A DNA stretch of 64,000 nt from Alphaproteobacteria bacterium (GTDB taxonomy: Bacteria; Pseudomonadota; Alphaproteobacteria; UBA8366; Aestuariispiraceae). Of the stretch, positions 55,224-64,000 are shown one piece after another. A program made the translations under genes and the position numbers. The DNA lies in the NCBI GenBank assembly GCA_033344895.1, contig JAWPMN010000001.1, positions 4,410,001-4,474,000 of the forward strand, read 5' to 3'. Under the pieces are notes generated by a model. The model searched no databases. It was not told the origin of the DNA and saw nothing but the letters and a program-made list of their open reading frames with translations. Positions within the stretch are counted from its first letter, which is position 1, and every line of letters starts with the position of its first letter.

Positions 55224-55347
55224 TGCGGCGGCCTCCAGAGTCTGTTCTTGCCTGGAAGCCAAGCCGATCCGGCTATGCCTGACAAGCCGATAGCACGGTT
55301 CTGGTGGAAAACCCTGTGGAAAGCCTGTTAGGAAGCTGGGGAAAACC

Positions 55348-55392
55348 CACAAGATATAGAAATCAGGCTTGCACGAAACACCATATCTATTA
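55348..55392 (+). promoter_or_regulatory. Tandem NrdR-like boxes upstream of nrdB
   Basis: Box 1, CACAAGATATAGAA (55348-55361), and box 2, CACCATATCTATTA (55379-55392), are exactly 31 bp apart, the three-turn spacing known for NrdR pairs. Each matches the palindromic consensus CACwAyATaTwGTG at about 11 of 14 positions. Box 2 overlaps a possible -10 (TATTCT, 55391-55396). NrdR represses ribonucleotide reductase genes when dATP is high. Confidence 0.75.
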
Positions 55393-55430
55393 TTCTCCCA
55401 GACTGATCCACGCAACGCTGTTCTAAAGGG

Positions 55431-55438
55431 TTAACCAT
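55431..55438 (+). promoter_or_regulatory. TTAACCAT half-site overlapping the nrdB start
   Basis: TTAACCAT matches the CtrA half-site and runs into the ATG at 55437. No second TTAA lies at the right distance. The overlap with the start codon limits its meaning; it could block translation or initiation only if occupied. Confidence 0.2.
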
Positions 55439-56396
55439 GTCGCTGCTTGATGCCAGCCCGGTCTATAAACCATTCAATTATCCATGGGCTTATGAGGCCT
55501 GGCTGACCCAGCAACGCATCCACTGGCTGCCCGAGGAAGTGCCGCTGGCCGACGACGTCAAGGACTGGCACAAGACGCTTACCAAGGCCGAGCGCAATCT
55601 TCTGACCCAGATTTTTCGCTTCTTCACCCAGGCGGATGTTGAGGTCAACAACTGCTACATGAAGCATTATTCCCAGGTCTTCCAGCCGACCGAAGTCCAG
55701 ATGATGCTGGCCGCCTTCTCCAATATGGAGACGGTCCATGTCGCAGCCTACAGCCACCTGCTGGACACGATCGGCATGCCCGAGGTCGAGTACACCGCCT
55801 TCATGAAATACAAGGAGATGAAGGACAAATACGACTACATGCAGGGTTGGGGCACCAGCACGAAAGAGGACATTGCCAAGACGCTGGCCGTCTTCGGCGG
55901 TTTCACCGAGGGTCTGCAGCTTTTCGCCAGCTTTGCCATGCTGATGAACTTCCCGCGCCACAACAAGATGAAAGGCATGGGGCAGATCGTCAGTTGGTCG
56001 GTGCGCGACGAGTCGCTGCACACCGCCTCGATCATCCGGCTGTTCAAGACCTTCATTTCCGAGAATCCCGAGATCTGGACCGAAGCGTTCCAGCGCGACC
56101 TCTACAAGGCCTGCGATACCATCGTCAGCCACGAGGATGCCTTCATCGACCTCGCATTCGAGCTTGGCGCCGTGGAGGGCCTGACGGCGGAGGATGTGAA
56201 GCGTTACATCCGTTACATCGCGGATCGCCGCCTGACCCAACTGGGTCTGCAGCCGATGTATCACACGGACAAGAACCCGCTGCGTTGGATGGACGAGATG
56301 CTGAACGGCGTCGAACATACCAACTTCTTCGAGAACCGCGCGACGGAGTATTCCAAGGCGTCGACCCAGGGTTCCTGGGAGGAAGCGTTCGAATAG
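55437..56396 (+). CDS. nrdB: Ribonucleotide reductase class I small subunit NrdB
   Basis: 319 residues. The di-iron ligands are Asp67 (TQADVEV), Glu98 and His101 (METVH), Glu158 (FTEGLQL), Glu192 and His195 (RDESLH). The radical Tyr105 (HVAAYSH) is present, so it is a tyrosyl-radical type and not the Phe-containing Chlamydia type. There is no N-terminal ATP-cone. NrdB makes the radical that NrdA uses to reduce ribonucleotides. The large-subunit gene is not adjacent: it begins 5.9 kb downstream at 62255. A hairpin terminator follows. Confidence 0.96.
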   Translation: MSLLDASPVYKPFNYPWAYEAWLTQQRIHWLPEEVPLADDVKDWHKTLTKAERNLLTQIFRFFTQADVEVNNCYMKHYSQVFQPTEVQMMLAAFSNMETVHVAAYSHLLDTIGMPEVEYTAFMKYKEMKDKYDYMQGWGTSTKEDIAKTLAVFGGFTEGLQLFASFAMLMNFPRHNKMKGMGQIVSWSVRDESLHTASIIRLFKTFISENPEIWTEAFQRDLYKACDTIVSHEDAFIDLAFELGAVEGLTAEDVKRYIRYIADRRLTQLGLQPMYHTDKNPLRWMDEMLNGVEHTNFFENRATEYSKASTQGSWEEAFE

Positions 56397-59207: not shown

Positions 59208-60014
59208 TCAGCTATACTTAAGCGTGATCCCGCCGTCGACCAGCAGTTCCAGACCGGTGACGTATTTGGATTCGTCCGATGCGAGGAAAAGCGCGGCATA
59301 GGCGACATCCCAGGCATCCCCCATATGTCCCATCGGGCATTGCGAATCCCGCACCTTCCACATCGCCTCGACATCGCCATCGGCATAGGTGCCGGCCAGG
59401 CCCGCCGATTTTTCCACCATCGGGGTCTTCATCAGACCCGGCAACACCGCATTGACCCGAATCCCCTTCGGCGCATACTCGGCCGCCACGGTCTTGGTCA
59501 GGTGGTTCATTGCCGCCTTGGTGGCGTAGTAGGTGGCATAGGGCACGCCGGTATAGCGGATAGACGCGATGGACGAGATGTTCACGATCGACCCGCCGCC
59601 CTGCTTCTCCATCACCGGCAGGACGTGCTTCATGGTCAGGTAGCACCCCTTCAAATTGACGTCGAAAATCCGGTCCCAGTCCTCTTCGGGCAGGTCGACC
59701 ACGCTGCCGACATGCGCAAGACCGACATTGTAGTCCACGATGTCGATGCGCCCGAAGGCGTCCAAGCAGGCGTTGACCATGCCCTTGATCTCGTCCTGAC
59801 GGACGACATCGACCTGGACGGCCGTTGCCCGACCGCCCTCATCACGGATGATCTGCGCCGTTTCCTCCGCCGCGGCCAGATTGACGTCCGCACAAAGCAC
59901 TGCAGCCCCTTCCCGGGCAAACAGGACAGCGGCGGCCTTTCCGTTTCCCCATCCGGGCCCGACAGACCCTGCGCCGACCACCAGGGCCACCTTGTCCTTC
60001 AACCGATCGGCCAT
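59208..60014 (-). CDS. Short-chain dehydrogenase/reductase
   Basis: 268 residues. The cofactor loop VVGAGSVGPGWGNGKAAAVL has more glycines than the usual TGxxxGIG. Ser in IVNISSIASI and the catalytic Tyr-x3-Lys (TYYATKAAM, about 156-160) are present. The end FLASDESKYVTGLELLVDGG is typical of classical SDRs. Many such proteins are called 3-oxoacyl reductase or glucose dehydrogenase, and the substrate is not readable. It is divergent from gcrA across a 462-bp gap. Confidence 0.88.
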   Translation of the reverse strand: MADRLKDKVALVVGAGSVGPGWGNGKAAAVLFAREGAAVLCADVNLAAAEETAQIIRDEGGRATAVQVDVVRQDEIKGMVNACLDAFGRIDIVDYNVGLAHVGSVVDLPEEDWDRIFDVNLKGCYLTMKHVLPVMEKQGGGSIVNISSIASIRYTGVPYATYYATKAAMNHLTKTVAAEYAPKGIRVNAVLPGLMKTPMVEKSAGLAGTYADGDVEAMWKVRDSQCPMGHMGDAWDVAYAALFLASDESKYVTGLELLVDGGITLKYS

Positions 60015-60127
60015 CTTGATTTCTCTCCCCGTTTATCGTTGCCGGGCATTATCGGAACGCACCGTCCCGATGACAATGGACCGGCTATCCGAAGACCTGT
60101 TCCGCCTGGACAGATTACCATCCGACG

Positions 60128-60141
60128 CACAAGATATTGTG
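60128..60141 (+). promoter_or_regulatory. Near-perfect palindromic NrdR-like box
   Basis: CACAAGATATTGTG matches the NrdR consensus CACwAyATaTwGTG at 13 of 14 positions and is nearly palindromic. It lies 114 bp upstream of the SDR start and 336 bp before gcrA. No partner box lies 31 bp away. It shares CACAAGATAT with the boxes at 55348, 60338 and (reverse strand) 62034. Confidence 0.55.
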
Positions 60142-60157
60142 GTTGGAAACGCGACCC

Positions 60158-60374
60158 GATTCGCGGCTGATTTCCGGTGAAAATGGCTGATTCAGTCCGA
60201 ATCCTTGTTGGGAAACGATCGATTCCGCTCTTGACCCCGGATTGGAATCGCGGCGCGCCGGAGAGAATCTCGCCCGAATCGATTTTTCGCTTGAGACTCC
60301 GAAATACGCCGTATATTGTGCCCGCACACACCGACGGCACAAGATATATTGGAATTCCGCGTGGAGTCTGACTC
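60158..60374. promoter_or_regulatory. Cluster of ten GANTC sites upstream of gcrA
   Basis: GANTC occurs at 60158, 60189, 60199, 60221, 60245, 60265, 60276, 60295, 60364 and 60370 within 217 bp; chance alone gives about one in that length. CcrM methylates GANTC in alphaproteobacteria, and GcrA binds methylated sites in promoters with RNA polymerase. The rest of the 462-bp gap 60015-60476 has the NrdR-like boxes and no gene that I can support. Confidence 0.8.
60307..60351 (+). promoter_or_regulatory. NrdR-like box pair with possible gcrA promoter
   Basis: CGCCGTATATTGTG (60307-60320) and CACAAGATATATTG (60338-60351) lie 31 bp apart. TTGAGA (60291-60296), 17 bp, TATTGT (60314-60319) is a possible promoter, with GACTC at 60295 touching its -35. 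The first box covers that -10, as in the nrdA promoter. Confidence 0.5.
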
Positions 60375-60476: not shown

Positions 60477-60809
60477 ATGGAATGGACGGACGAGCGGGTC
60501 ACCCTCCTCAAGGGAATGTGGACCAACGGCTATACGGCCCGACAGATCGCCGAGAAACTTGGCGGTGTCACGCGGAACGCGGTGATCGGCAAGGCGCACC
60601 GCCTCGGCCTTTCCTCCCGTCCGACGCAGGTCAAGCGGCACACGCCGCTGCCCATCCCGAATGTGGTGGAGCGTCACTGCCAGTGGCCGATTGGCCATCC
60701 GGGCACCGACGAGTTCCATTTCTGTGGCAAGAACGCCGTTCCGGGCAAACCCTATTGCGAGAAGCATTGCTCGGTCGCGTATCGGCGCAAGGACGACAAC
60801 GCCGCCTAA
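60477..60809 (+). CDS. gcrA: Cell-cycle regulator GcrA
   Basis: 110 residues from the ATG at 60477. EWTDERVTLLKGMWTNGYTA with RQIAEKLGGVTRNAVIGKAH (2-41) is the diagnostic GcrA DNA-binding region. The short end has FCGKNAVPGKPYCEKHC, a Cys/His-rich block often present at the GcrA C-terminus. GcrA works with RNA polymerase at CcrM-methylated GANTC promoters, controlling division and DNA replication genes. Its own upstream region is full of GANTC sites. An upstream in-frame extension lacks homology. The AI-2E transporter gene follows by 53 bp. Confidence 0.93.
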   Translation: MEWTDERVTLLKGMWTNGYTARQIAEKLGGVTRNAVIGKAHRLGLSSRPTQVKRHTPLPIPNVVERHCQWPIGHPGTDEFHFCGKNAVPGKPYCEKHCSVAYRRKDDNAA

Positions 60810-60862: not shown

Positions 60863-61954
60863 ATGACGGACGAGACGGACTCCGCGCCACGAAATCTGGC
60901 GAACATCCGGGTTCTGAGCGTCTTCTCCGCCTTCGCGCTGGTCGCGCTTCTGGTCTATCTGATGGTGATCGCGGAGGCCATTCTCCTGCCCTTCGTGATC
61001 GCCGTCTTTATTGTCATCCTGCTGGATTCCCTTGCCGTTCGGATCAATCGGATCACGATCGCCGGGCGATCGCTGCCGGCCTGGGCCGGAATGACCCTGT
61101 CGATCCTGATCTTCATCCTGGCCTTCGTTGCGTTGGCCAATCTGATCCGCAGCAACATCGCGGCGGTCAGCGCCGCCGTTCCCGAGTATGAAGAGAACAT
61201 TCGCGGCATGGTCGACCGGTGGCTGGCGCTTGCCGGTGCAAAGGAACTCCCCAGCATCCGCGATCTGATCGACCAGATCGATGTCGGCAAGACCCTGGGC
61301 AGTGCCGTGTCCGCCCTTGCCTCCGTCACCGGGAACGCTTTGACCGTTCTTTTTTATGTCGTCTTCATCCTGCTGGAGCAGGTCACGTTCGGTCGCAAGG
61401 TGGAGGCACTGTTCACGAAGACCGACGACCGCAAGCGGGCGCGCGAAATGATCGGCCGCATTACCAAGGATATTCAGACCTATATCGGTCTGAAGACCTT
61501 CGTCAGCGCGATTACCGGGATTCTGAGCTATATCGTCATGGCCCTGGTCGGGGTCGATTTCGCGGGCTTCTGGGCCGTCCTGATCTTTATCCTGAACTAC
61601 ATTCCCTATGTCGGATCGCTGGCCGGAGTCGCCTTCCCCGCCGTTCTGACACTGGTGCAGTTCAGTTCGCCGATTCCCTTCGTCATCACGACGGTGGTCC
61701 TGGCCAGCGTGCAACTGACCGTCGGCAATGTCATCGAGCCCCGGATGATGGGACGGTCGCTGAATCTCAGTCCGCTTGTCATCCTGCTTTCGCTGGCCGT
61801 GTTCGGCCAGATCTGGGGCATCGTCGGAATGGTTCTATCCATGCCCTTCATGGTCATTGCCATGATTGTCTGCGCCGGGTTCGAGGCGACACGACCGATC
61901 GCGATCGTGCTCTCGGCGACCGGCAATGTGGACCGAAAAGACACGGCCGCCTGA
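60863..61954 (+). CDS. AI-2E family transporter (UPF0118)
   Basis: 363 residues with about eight membrane segments (for example LVALLVYLMVIAEAILLPFV and LIFILAFVALANLIRS). GTLSIEP-type motifs are not visible, but the family pattern FWAVLIFILNYIPYVGSLAG and the end region LNLSPLVILLSLAVFGQIWG are clear. The family includes exporters of autoinducer-2 and ion/organic-acid transporters, so the substrate is uncertain. GGAAGG precedes the ATG. It is placed between gcrA and nrdA. Confidence 0.92.
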   Translation: MTDETDSAPRNLANIRVLSVFSAFALVALLVYLMVIAEAILLPFVIAVFIVILLDSLAVRINRITIAGRSLPAWAGMTLSILIFILAFVALANLIRSNIAAVSAAVPEYEENIRGMVDRWLALAGAKELPSIRDLIDQIDVGKTLGSAVSALASVTGNALTVLFYVVFILLEQVTFGRKVEALFTKTDDRKRAREMIGRITKDIQTYIGLKTFVSAITGILSYIVMALVGVDFAGFWAVLIFILNYIPYVGSLAGVAFPAVLTLVQFSSPIPFVITTVVLASVQLTVGNVIEPRMMGRSLNLSPLVILLSLAVFGQIWGIVGMVLSMPFMVIAMIVCAGFEATRPIAIVLSATGNVDRKDTAA

Positions 61955-62012: not shown

Positions 62013-62040
62013 TTGACACGGACTCTCACTTCGCTATATC
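62013..62040 (+). promoter_or_regulatory. Probable nrdA promoter with a GANTC site in the spacer
   Basis: TTGACA (62013-62018), 16-bp spacer, TATATC (62035-62040). GACTC (62021-62025) lies in the spacer, as in GcrA-activated promoters. Two more GANTC sites precede it (61971, 61987). The -10 overlaps the first NrdR-like box. Confidence 0.7.
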
Positions 62041-62075
62041 TTGTGCCCCGCAGTCGAGATGGCCGCTATATTGTG
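62032..62075 (+). promoter_or_regulatory. Tandem NrdR-like boxes upstream of nrdA
   Basis: Box 1 (62034-62045) reads CTATATCTTGTG, the exact reverse complement of the CACAAGATATAG in the nrdB box. Box 2 CGCTATATTGTG (62064-62075) lies 30 bp on and matches at about 10 of 12 positions. The 300-bp gap 61955-62254 holds these boxes, the promoter and the DnaA box, but no gene. Confidence 0.75.
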
Positions 62076-62088
62076 GGTGAATATAAAG

Positions 62089-62097
62089 TTATCCACA
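62089..62097 (+). promoter_or_regulatory. DnaA box in the nrdA leader
   Basis: TTATCCACA is a perfect consensus DnaA box, about 55 bp downstream of the -10. DnaA control of nrdA is known in E. coli. It could link dNTP supply to replication initiation here. Confidence 0.6.
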
Positions 62098-62254: not shown

Positions 62255-64000
62255 GTGCCGGACGGATCCATCAAGTCTTCGAACCAGGACGACATCCTGC
62301 GAGACCTCGATCGCACCCTGGACAAGGCCAAAAAGGGCACCCGCCCGGCGCGACAGCAGGAAGAAGCCGACCTCGACCGGAAACTTCGCGACATCAAGCA
62401 GAACGAGCGCGGCATCAAGGTCACCGTCGATCGCAGCCGCGACGGTCTGCTGACCGAGTTCGGCAAGGCGACGCTCAGCGATCGTTACCTGATGCCCGGC
62501 GAAAGTTTCCAGGACATGTTCGCCCGCGTTGCAATGCATTTTGCCGATGACTCAGCCCATGCGCAGCGGCTCTATGATTATATTTCGAAGCTCTGGTTCA
62601 TGCCGGCCACGCCGGTCCTGTCCAATGGCGGCACCAAGCGCGGCCTTCCGATCAGCTGCTTCCTGAATGAAAGCACCGACAGCCTGGAAGGCATTGTCGG
62701 CCTGTGGAACGAGAATGTCTGGCTCGCGGCCCGTGGCGGCGGAATCGGCAGCTACTGGGGCAATCTGCGCTCCATTGGCGAGACCGTCGGCGGCAACGGC
62801 AAGACGTCGGGCGTGGTTCCCTTCATCCGGGTCATGGATTCCCTGACGCTGGCGATCAGCCAGGGGTCGCTGCGCCGCGGTTCGGCTGCGGTCTACCTGC
62901 CGATCTGGCACCCGGAGATTGAGGAATTCATCGAAATCCGACGCCCGACCGGCGGCGATCCGAACCGGAAGGCACTGAACCTGCACCACGGGATCGTCAT
63001 TACCGACGACTTCATGCGCGCGGTCGAGAATGACGAGGAATGGAAGCTGGTATCGCCGAAAGACAAGGCGATGATCCGCAAGGTCCGGGCCCGCGATCTC
63101 TGGATTCGCATCCTGACCGCCCGGATTGAAACGGGCGAGCCCTACATTCTCTACGGCGACCATGTGAACCGGAACATTCCGGAGCACCAGAAACTGGCCG
63201 GGCTTACGGTCAAGACGTCCAACCTCTGCTCCGAAATCACGCTGCCGACCGGTGTCGACCACCATGGTGAACAGCGCACCGCGGTCTGCTGCCTGTCTTC
63301 CCTGAACCTCGAGAAATACCTCGAATGGGAGCAGGAAGACGATTTCGTGCCGGATGTGATGCGCTTCCTGGACAATGTGCTTCAGGATTTCATCGACAAT
63401 GCGCCGGACGACTTCTCACGCGCCAAATATGCGGCCATGCGGGAACGCTCGGTCGGTCTAGGCACGATGGGGTATCATTCCTTCCTGCAGGCGATGATGA
63501 TTCCGATGGAAGGTGTCATGGCAAAGGTCTGGAACACCCGGATGTTCAAGCATATCCGCGCTCAGGCCGACAAAGCCTCACGCGATCTGGCGGCGGAGCG
63601 CGGCGCCTGCCCGGATGCCGCGGAGTTCGGCATTCAGGAGCGTTTCTCCAACAAGCTCGCGATCGCACCGACCGCATCCATCTCTATCATCTGCGGCGGC
63701 ACTTCACCGGGTATCGAACCGATCGCGGCGAACAGCTACACCCACAAGACGCTAAGCGGCTCTTTCACTGTCCGGAACCGGCATCTGAAGGCGCTGCTGG
63801 CGGAAAAGGGTAAGGACGACGACGACACCTGGTCGTCGATCTCGGTCAATGAAGGTTCGGTCCAGCATCTCGACTTCCTGTCGGATGAGGAGAAGGACGT
63901 CTTCAAGACGGCCTTCGAAATCGATCAGCGCTGGCTGATCGACCATGCCGGCGACCGGGCACCGTTCATCTGTCAGGCGCAGTCGCTGAACGTTTTCCTA
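62255..64000 (+). CDS. nrdA: Ribonucleotide reductase class I large subunit NrdA (partial at window end)
   Basis: 582 codons without a stop before the window ends. The GTG at 62255 is preceded by GGGGGTAAG; a TTG at 62240 is an alternative. The radical-site Cys is in SNLCSEITLPTG. The redox pair is in LPISCFLNES and AVCCLSSLNLEKY. PTASISIICGGTSPGIEP is the phosphate-binding loop. The first 60 residues are charged and helix-like and do not match an ATP-cone, so overall activity regulation by ATP/dATP may be missing or located elsewhere. NrdA reduces ribonucleotides using the radical made by NrdB (55437). Its promoter carries NrdR, GANTC and DnaA sites. Confidence 0.94.
   Translation, partial: MPDGSIKSSNQDDILRDLDRTLDKAKKGTRPARQQEEADLDRKLRDIKQNERGIKVTVDRSRDGLLTEFGKATLSDRYLMPGESFQDMFARVAMHFADDSAHAQRLYDYISKLWFMPATPVLSNGGTKRGLPISCFLNESTDSLEGIVGLWNENVWLAARGGGIGSYWGNLRSIGETVGGNGKTSGVVPFIRVMDSLTLAISQGSLRRGSAAVYLPIWHPEIEEFIEIRRPTGGDPNRKALNLHHGIVITDDFMRAVENDEEWKLVSPKDKAMIRKVRARDLWIRILTARIETGEPYILYGDHVNRNIPEHQKLAGLTVKTSNLCSEITLPTGVDHHGEQRTAVCCLSSLNLEKYLEWEQEDDFVPDVMRFLDNVLQDFIDNAPDDFSRAKYAAMRERSVGLGTMGYHSFLQAMMIPMEGVMAKVWNTRMFKHIRAQADKASRDLAAERGACPDAAEFGIQERFSNKLAIAPTASISIICGGTSPGIEPIAANSYTHKTLSGSFTVRNRHLKALLAEKGKDDDDTWSSISVNEGSVQHLDFLSDEEKDVFKTAFEIDQRWLIDHAGDRAPFICQAQSLNVFL

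Follow-up and report, generated by a model that had tools for sequence, protein, structure and literature searches.

Putative NrdR operator in front of the cell-cycle gene gcrA in Aestuariispiraceae and other Alphaproteobacteria

Genes of the gcrA locus and regulators encoded in the genome

The window analysed in this study is a 64,000-nucleotide stretch of contig JAWPMN010000001.1 from an alphaproteobacterium of the Aestuariispiraceae. It carries a gcrA gene of 110 codons (60477..60809, plus strand), recognized by Pfam PF07750 with 131.5 bits against a cut-off of 26.9. gcrA is a bacterial cell-cycle master gene and its product is a cofactor of sigma-70. Against the NCBIfam equivalog model NF050816 (173 aa) the predicted protein reached 115.7 bits, below the cut-off of 280; the missed cut-off and the short length point to a short GcrA-family protein, and equivalence to Caulobacter GcrA is not implied. 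Downstream on the same strand are located an AI-2E family transporter gene (60863..61954; PF01594, 154.5 bits) and nrdA, encoding the large subunit of class I ribonucleotide reductase (62255..64000, running beyond the window end; PF02867 and PF00317), with a presumed GTG start at 62255. The small subunit gene nrdB is found at 55437..56396 (plus strand; PF00268), and an SDR-family gene (59208..60014, minus strand; PF13561) is the divergent neighbour of gcrA.

NrdR is the ATP/dATP-sensing repressor of ribonucleotide reductase. Its gene is present in the genome as a single PF22811 match at 3799146, scoring 185.3 bits with TIGR00244 (cut-off 124.65). The genome also encodes a CcrM-like methyltransferase (PF01555, 244 bits), for which the best NCBIfam model is CcrM NF050803 with 630 bits against a cut-off of 830. 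A second GcrA-like gene was found at 749435-749857, within an open frame of 370 aa, and no good NrdR pair was detected in the locus extracted around it (L003).

NrdR-like boxes and promoter architecture

The preliminary description reported four copies of a 10-mer, CACAAGATAT, in front of nrdB, gcrA and nrdA, and all four could be confirmed: on the plus strand at 55348, 60128 and 60338, and on the reverse strand at 62036-62045. Shuffled versions of the window contained on average 0.01 copies, and none of 100 shuffles contained at least four. In the whole 4.64-Mb genome the 10-mer occurs six times. The fifth copy precedes nrdJ (class II reductase, locus L005), identified from its translation and from reductase matches at the same place, and the sixth precedes a SPOR-domain gene (locus L006). 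Five of the six genomic copies, those at nrdB, gcrA, nrdA and nrdJ, are thus found at the promoter of gcrA or of a reductase gene.

For scoring, a 16-bp matrix was built whose training set consisted of 24 nrdA promoters, all from genera other than that of the window, with training sites chosen by the NrdR consensus of the literature. Training on nrdB was dropped, as only 7 of 29 upstream regions from the order passed the training consensus cut; since most of the order thus has no pair before nrdB, the nrdA promoters were used instead. The best pairs in the window at spacings of 30-32 bp were those of nrdB (29.4 bits), gcrA (23.9) and nrdA (20.7), while the next, unrelated pair reached 15.5 bits, which places the gcrA pair second, between nrdB and nrdA. 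It consists of box 1 (ACGCCGTATATTGTGC, 60306..60321, 12.3 bits) and box 2 (GCACAAGATATATTGG, 60337..60352, 11.6 bits), 31 bp apart. The nrdB boxes at 55347..55362 (15.3 bits) and 55378..55393 (14.1 bits) have the same 31-bp spacing, as had been described before. For nrdA, a spacing of 30 or 32 bp fits better than 31: box 1 (62031..62046) scores 14.8 bits and the weak box 2 (62063..62078) 5.9 bits at a spacing of 32, or 3.7 at 30. The gcrA boxes are unexceptional when taken singly, several unrelated single sites in the window scoring higher, and the exceptional feature at gcrA is the pair. C4 and G13 are both present in gcrA box 1; box 2 keeps C4 and has T instead of the conserved G at position 13, which counts against it, although nrdB box 2 carries the same T.

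The other places in the genome with the 10-mer differ in layout. In front of nrdJ (L005:1410-1515) three strong boxes are spaced by 42 and 48 bp, not 31. The SPOR-domain gene is preceded by an NrdR-like pair of 24.7 bits (L006:1469-1515, about 3381730-3381776 of the genome studied here), and a pair of 19.1 to 29.7 bits was present in all seven upstream regions tested in relatives, these being the 7 of 12 listed matches that extend to the N-terminal part of the protein. Its product is possibly a septal protein under NrdR control. A DnaA-box-like site, TTATCCACA, was also noted at 62089-62097, downstream of the NrdR boxes and ahead of the nrdA start.

A sigma-70 promoter is predicted for gcrA at 60291..60319 on the plus strand (TTGAGA, 17 bp, TATTGT; 9 of 12 consensus positions), and its -10 element falls inside NrdR-like box 1. 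The predicted nrdA promoter (TTGACA/TATCTT, 62013-62042) likewise has its -10 element inside box 1. The block CTTGAGA(C/G)TC, which overlaps the -35 element of gcrA and includes a GANTC site, has been retained in 10 of the 14 family genomes compared. Ten GANTC (CcrM) sites are crowded into the 217 bp between 60158 and 60374, starting at 60158, 60189, 60199, 60221, 60245, 60265, 60276, 60295, 60364 and 60370. The maximum elsewhere is five per 217 bp (segments starting below 60000), and the Poisson probability of at least ten sites is 6e-10 per 217 bp. Across the order, gcrA upstream regions hold on average 5.3 GANTC sites per 400 bp, compared with 2.0 for nrdA, 1.4 for whole loci and 0.8 for dnaA. 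The promoter of gcrA in A. tumefaciens is similarly rich, with 6 GANTC sites in 250 bp, and methylation lowers its activity (PMC11514494), so the cluster found here is of a known kind.

It is unlikely that the pairs are genuine sites read by another factor with a similar AT-rich palindrome. The assignment to NrdR is derived from sequence, and the matrix is weak at positions 5, 7, 10 and 12, which would leave room for such a factor. Against it stand the motif and spacing shared with nrdA and nrdB, and the 10-mer before nrdJ in the same genome. Motif and spacing also correspond to what is described for NrdR, which binds as a tetramer to a pair of boxes separated by about three helical turns and requires dATP plus ATP or ADP; its boxes are situated upstream of the start site and overlap it (PMC9110341).

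Conservation of the boxes and controls

The preliminary description had proposed a comparison of gcrA upstream regions in related species, and in this comparison the pair was found to be kept. Within the order, all 30 upstream regions (30 loci from 38 matching genomes, 43 searched) carry a gcrA pair of at least 12 bits at 30-32 bp, compared with 0.28 in shuffles, and the spacers between the boxes have diverged between genera. The 12-bit cut was set after the scores of the named loci were known.

Within the genus, gcrA, the transporter gene and nrdA are adjacent and co-directed, and the boxes might be thought to serve nrdA through a common transcript with gcrA as a mere passenger. This is very improbable, because nrdA owns a promoter and a pair, and because outside the genus the gcrA pair is kept even where nrdA is distant or on another contig. 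gcrA adjoins nrdA in this genus only; in other members of the order the two genes are 34 to 391 kb apart on the same contig (G007, G002 and G001) or on different contigs. The boxes are kept, for example, at about 310 kb (G002) and 391 kb (G001), which indicates that the pair belongs to gcrA.

For the class, 241 genomes were searched and 156 matched; of these, 80 with a match starting at residue 1-3 were taken in listing order. A pair of at least 12 bits was found in 46 of the 80 gcrA upstream regions, compared with 0.68 in shuffles; the remaining 34 were below the cut. At 18 bits or more, a spacing of 31 bp was seen in 29 and of 32 bp in 13 of the 80, with 0 to 6 at other spacings. At 12 bits the peak stood at 34 (31 bp) and 18 (32 bp), with side values of up to 15 (29 bp). 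For the named loci (78 of 80, two being too short), 45 were positive at 12 bits, and the gcrA pair outscored every other pair of its locus in 49, compared with 2.3 expected. In three further named loci, of the Pacificispira group, it was outscored by a single position, at nrdA.

Named loci with the pair belonged to the Rhodospirillaceae (10 of 11), Azospirillaceae (14 of 21), other Rhodospirillales (7 of 7), Minwuiales (1 of 1) and unplaced genomes (13 of 25). At the 12-bit cut no pair was found in those of Kordiimonadales (0 of 6), Sphingomonadales (0 of 3), Hyphomicrobiales (0 of 3) and one Micavibrio metagenome-assembled genome (0 of 1). The absence from the first three groups, together with the 34 of 80 below the cut, shows that a link between NrdR and gcrA would not be universal. 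Of the seven Azospirillaceae that miss the cut, six still have the gcrA pair as the best of their locus. A GcrA protein tree (n=158) gave 22 trait changes for 91 positives; it had no shuffled control and was not counted as evidence.

Further upstream of gcrA a single NrdR-like box, GCACAAGATATTGTGG (60127..60142), represents a putative third operator. With 18.3 bits it is the top single site in the window, and it has no partner at 31 bp. This box is kept in all six members of the genus, at -348 to -374 of gcrA and with 18 to 22 bits. Its distances to box 1 are 178, 179, 190, 200, 201 and 201 bp, corresponding to 16.95 to 19.14 turns of 10.5 bp; the near-whole-turn fit of the three distance classes has a chance of about 2%, so looping is only hinted at.

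The box at 60127 lies in the gap shared with the divergent SDR gene, 113 bp from its start, and could suggest that the boxes, or at least this one, serve that gene. This is highly improbable, given that the SDR gene was found by tblastn in the 1.5 kb upstream of gcrA in two of the six genus members and not in the other four, while the third box occurs in all six and thus goes with gcrA. Moreover, a rough call of open reading frames in the 45 positive named loci gave 25 upstream neighbours on the strand of gcrA and 20 divergent ones.

As controls, none of 29 dnaA upstream regions (29 of 30 loci, one being too short) carried a pair, and among upstream regions of other open reading frames in the named loci 5 of 448 did, two of them belonging to nrdA. 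Equally good pairs elsewhere, which would have weakened the initial proposal, proved rare: 12 of 2462 background windows drawn from the gathered loci reached 12 bits, and the top three were at nrdA. The strongest background match outside nrdA was a 24.4-bit pair in locus L056, about 2 kb upstream of gcrA and before an open reading frame on the opposite strand. Chance similarity in AT-rich promoters, to which the AT-rich box cores and the low rate of off-spacing pairs could point, is scarcely credible in view of the shuffles, the spacing peak and the dnaA and other-ORF controls; it is statistically refuted for the whole set, while pairs in single genomes may still be due to chance.

For ccrM, 18 of 40 upstream regions from the class had an NrdR-like pair, five of them at 18 bits or more, compared with 0.12 in shuffles; the 40 genomes are a hand-picked, non-random selection from 82 matching ones, in listing order. 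The spacing counts were 9 at 31 bp and 10 at 32 bp, and 0 to 5 elsewhere. Within the order (29 of 30 loci, one being too short), 10 of 29 regions reached at least 12 bits, compared with 0.14 in shuffles; the spacing was not specific, with 11 at 33 bp, 7 at 32, 7 at 60 and 2 at 31. The pair before ccrM in the genome studied here (G000:C1:285723-286802) scored 10.2 bits. Across 21 genomes, pairs were present at both gcrA and ccrM in 10, at neither in 6 and at one only in 5 (Fisher P 0.03). These patterns are suggestive of NrdR pairs before ccrM in part of the class and are less secure than those at gcrA. As some ccrM pairs overlap GANTC sites, methylation could touch NrdR binding there.

Possible NrdR control of gcrA and its meaning for the cell cycle

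The initial reading of the boxes as a sign that NrdR controls gcrA is supported by their conservation, by the rare background and by the presence of nrdR in the genome. The pair at 60306/60337 is very probably an NrdR operator for gcrA, designed as at nrdA and nrdB, through which gcrA would be repressed together with the reductases. The support is at the level of sequence and comprises the boxes, their spacing, the overlap with the predicted promoter, the conservation, and the fact that the genome encodes both NrdR and CcrM. NrdR occupancy, repression and dATP dependence at gcrA we infer by analogy, while looping, a methylation input and an effect on S-phase timing are speculative.

At high dATP an NrdR tetramer would sit on the pair and mask the predicted -10 element and the transcript start, and gcrA would then be switched off together with the reductase genes. 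Once replication drains dATP, repression would be lifted from gcrA and the reductases at the same time. About 17 to 19 turns upstream, the box at 60127 could cooperate with the pair as a third operator via looping, and the crowd of GANTC sites could add a second, methylation-dependent input at gcrA.

The NrdR operators of the reductase genes (nrdA, nrdB and nrdJ) resemble the candidate operator of gcrA in the 16-bp palindrome, the two copies about three turns apart and the overlap with the predicted promoter. They differ in that gcrA is not a reductase gene and, in this genus, has a distant third box and a GANTC cluster. A target outside the reductases is also provided by P. aeruginosa topA, which differs in having a single NrdR box and in being activated by NrdR (PMC4409342); the sign of the NrdR effect at gcrA could therefore differ from repression. 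The A. tumefaciens gcrA promoter is GANTC-rich like the one described here (6 in 250 bp versus 10 in 217 bp), and the term NrdR does not occur in the main text of that paper (PMC11514494). Caulobacter gcrA is likewise tied to the replication cycle, under the control of DnaA, plus CtrA in Caulobacter-like species, and the available text does not name NrdR as a factor (PMC2877005).

In the open-access literature, a scope that leaves RegPrecise and the 2005 regulon tables outside, a link between NrdR and gcrA or CcrM is not stated, and papers naming both NrdR and gcrA treat them separately in the text available. The main text of a study on NrdR regulons in Proteobacteria mentions neither gcrA nor ccrM (PMC5343134).

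In Caulobacter, raised dNTPs delay S-phase entry by a mechanism described by the authors as "undefined" and assigned to a step after CtrA and DnaA (PMC12186491). According to the same source, deletion of nrdR gives 10% more spreading in soft agar, as seen likewise in a strain with raised dNTPs, from which a longer swarmer phase was concluded by the authors, and this effect adds to that of raised dNTPs. The phenotype is the opposite of what would be expected if high dNTPs simply delayed S phase through repression of gcrA by NrdR. It speaks against the simplest form of NrdR control in Caulobacter, provided that gcrA has the boxes there.

As a broader proposal, put forward tentatively and at slightly less than even odds, NrdR could be an old dNTP input to the whole epigenetic cell-cycle module of GcrA and CcrM, acting on both genes across much of the Alphaproteobacteria, so that CcrM, its reader GcrA and the reductases would follow dATP status in concert. 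In the genus studied here the third operator, in phase with the pair, would make gcrA a looped promoter. The NrdR pair is a candidate for gcrA control where the DnaA-GcrA-CtrA loop of Caulobacter is not conserved (PMC2877005). That NrdR has an operator at gcrA, and perhaps another at ccrM, is a concrete and testable hypothesis, for example in an Azospirillum carrying the pair. If true, a well understood nucleotide sensor would be joined to a central cell-cycle circuit.
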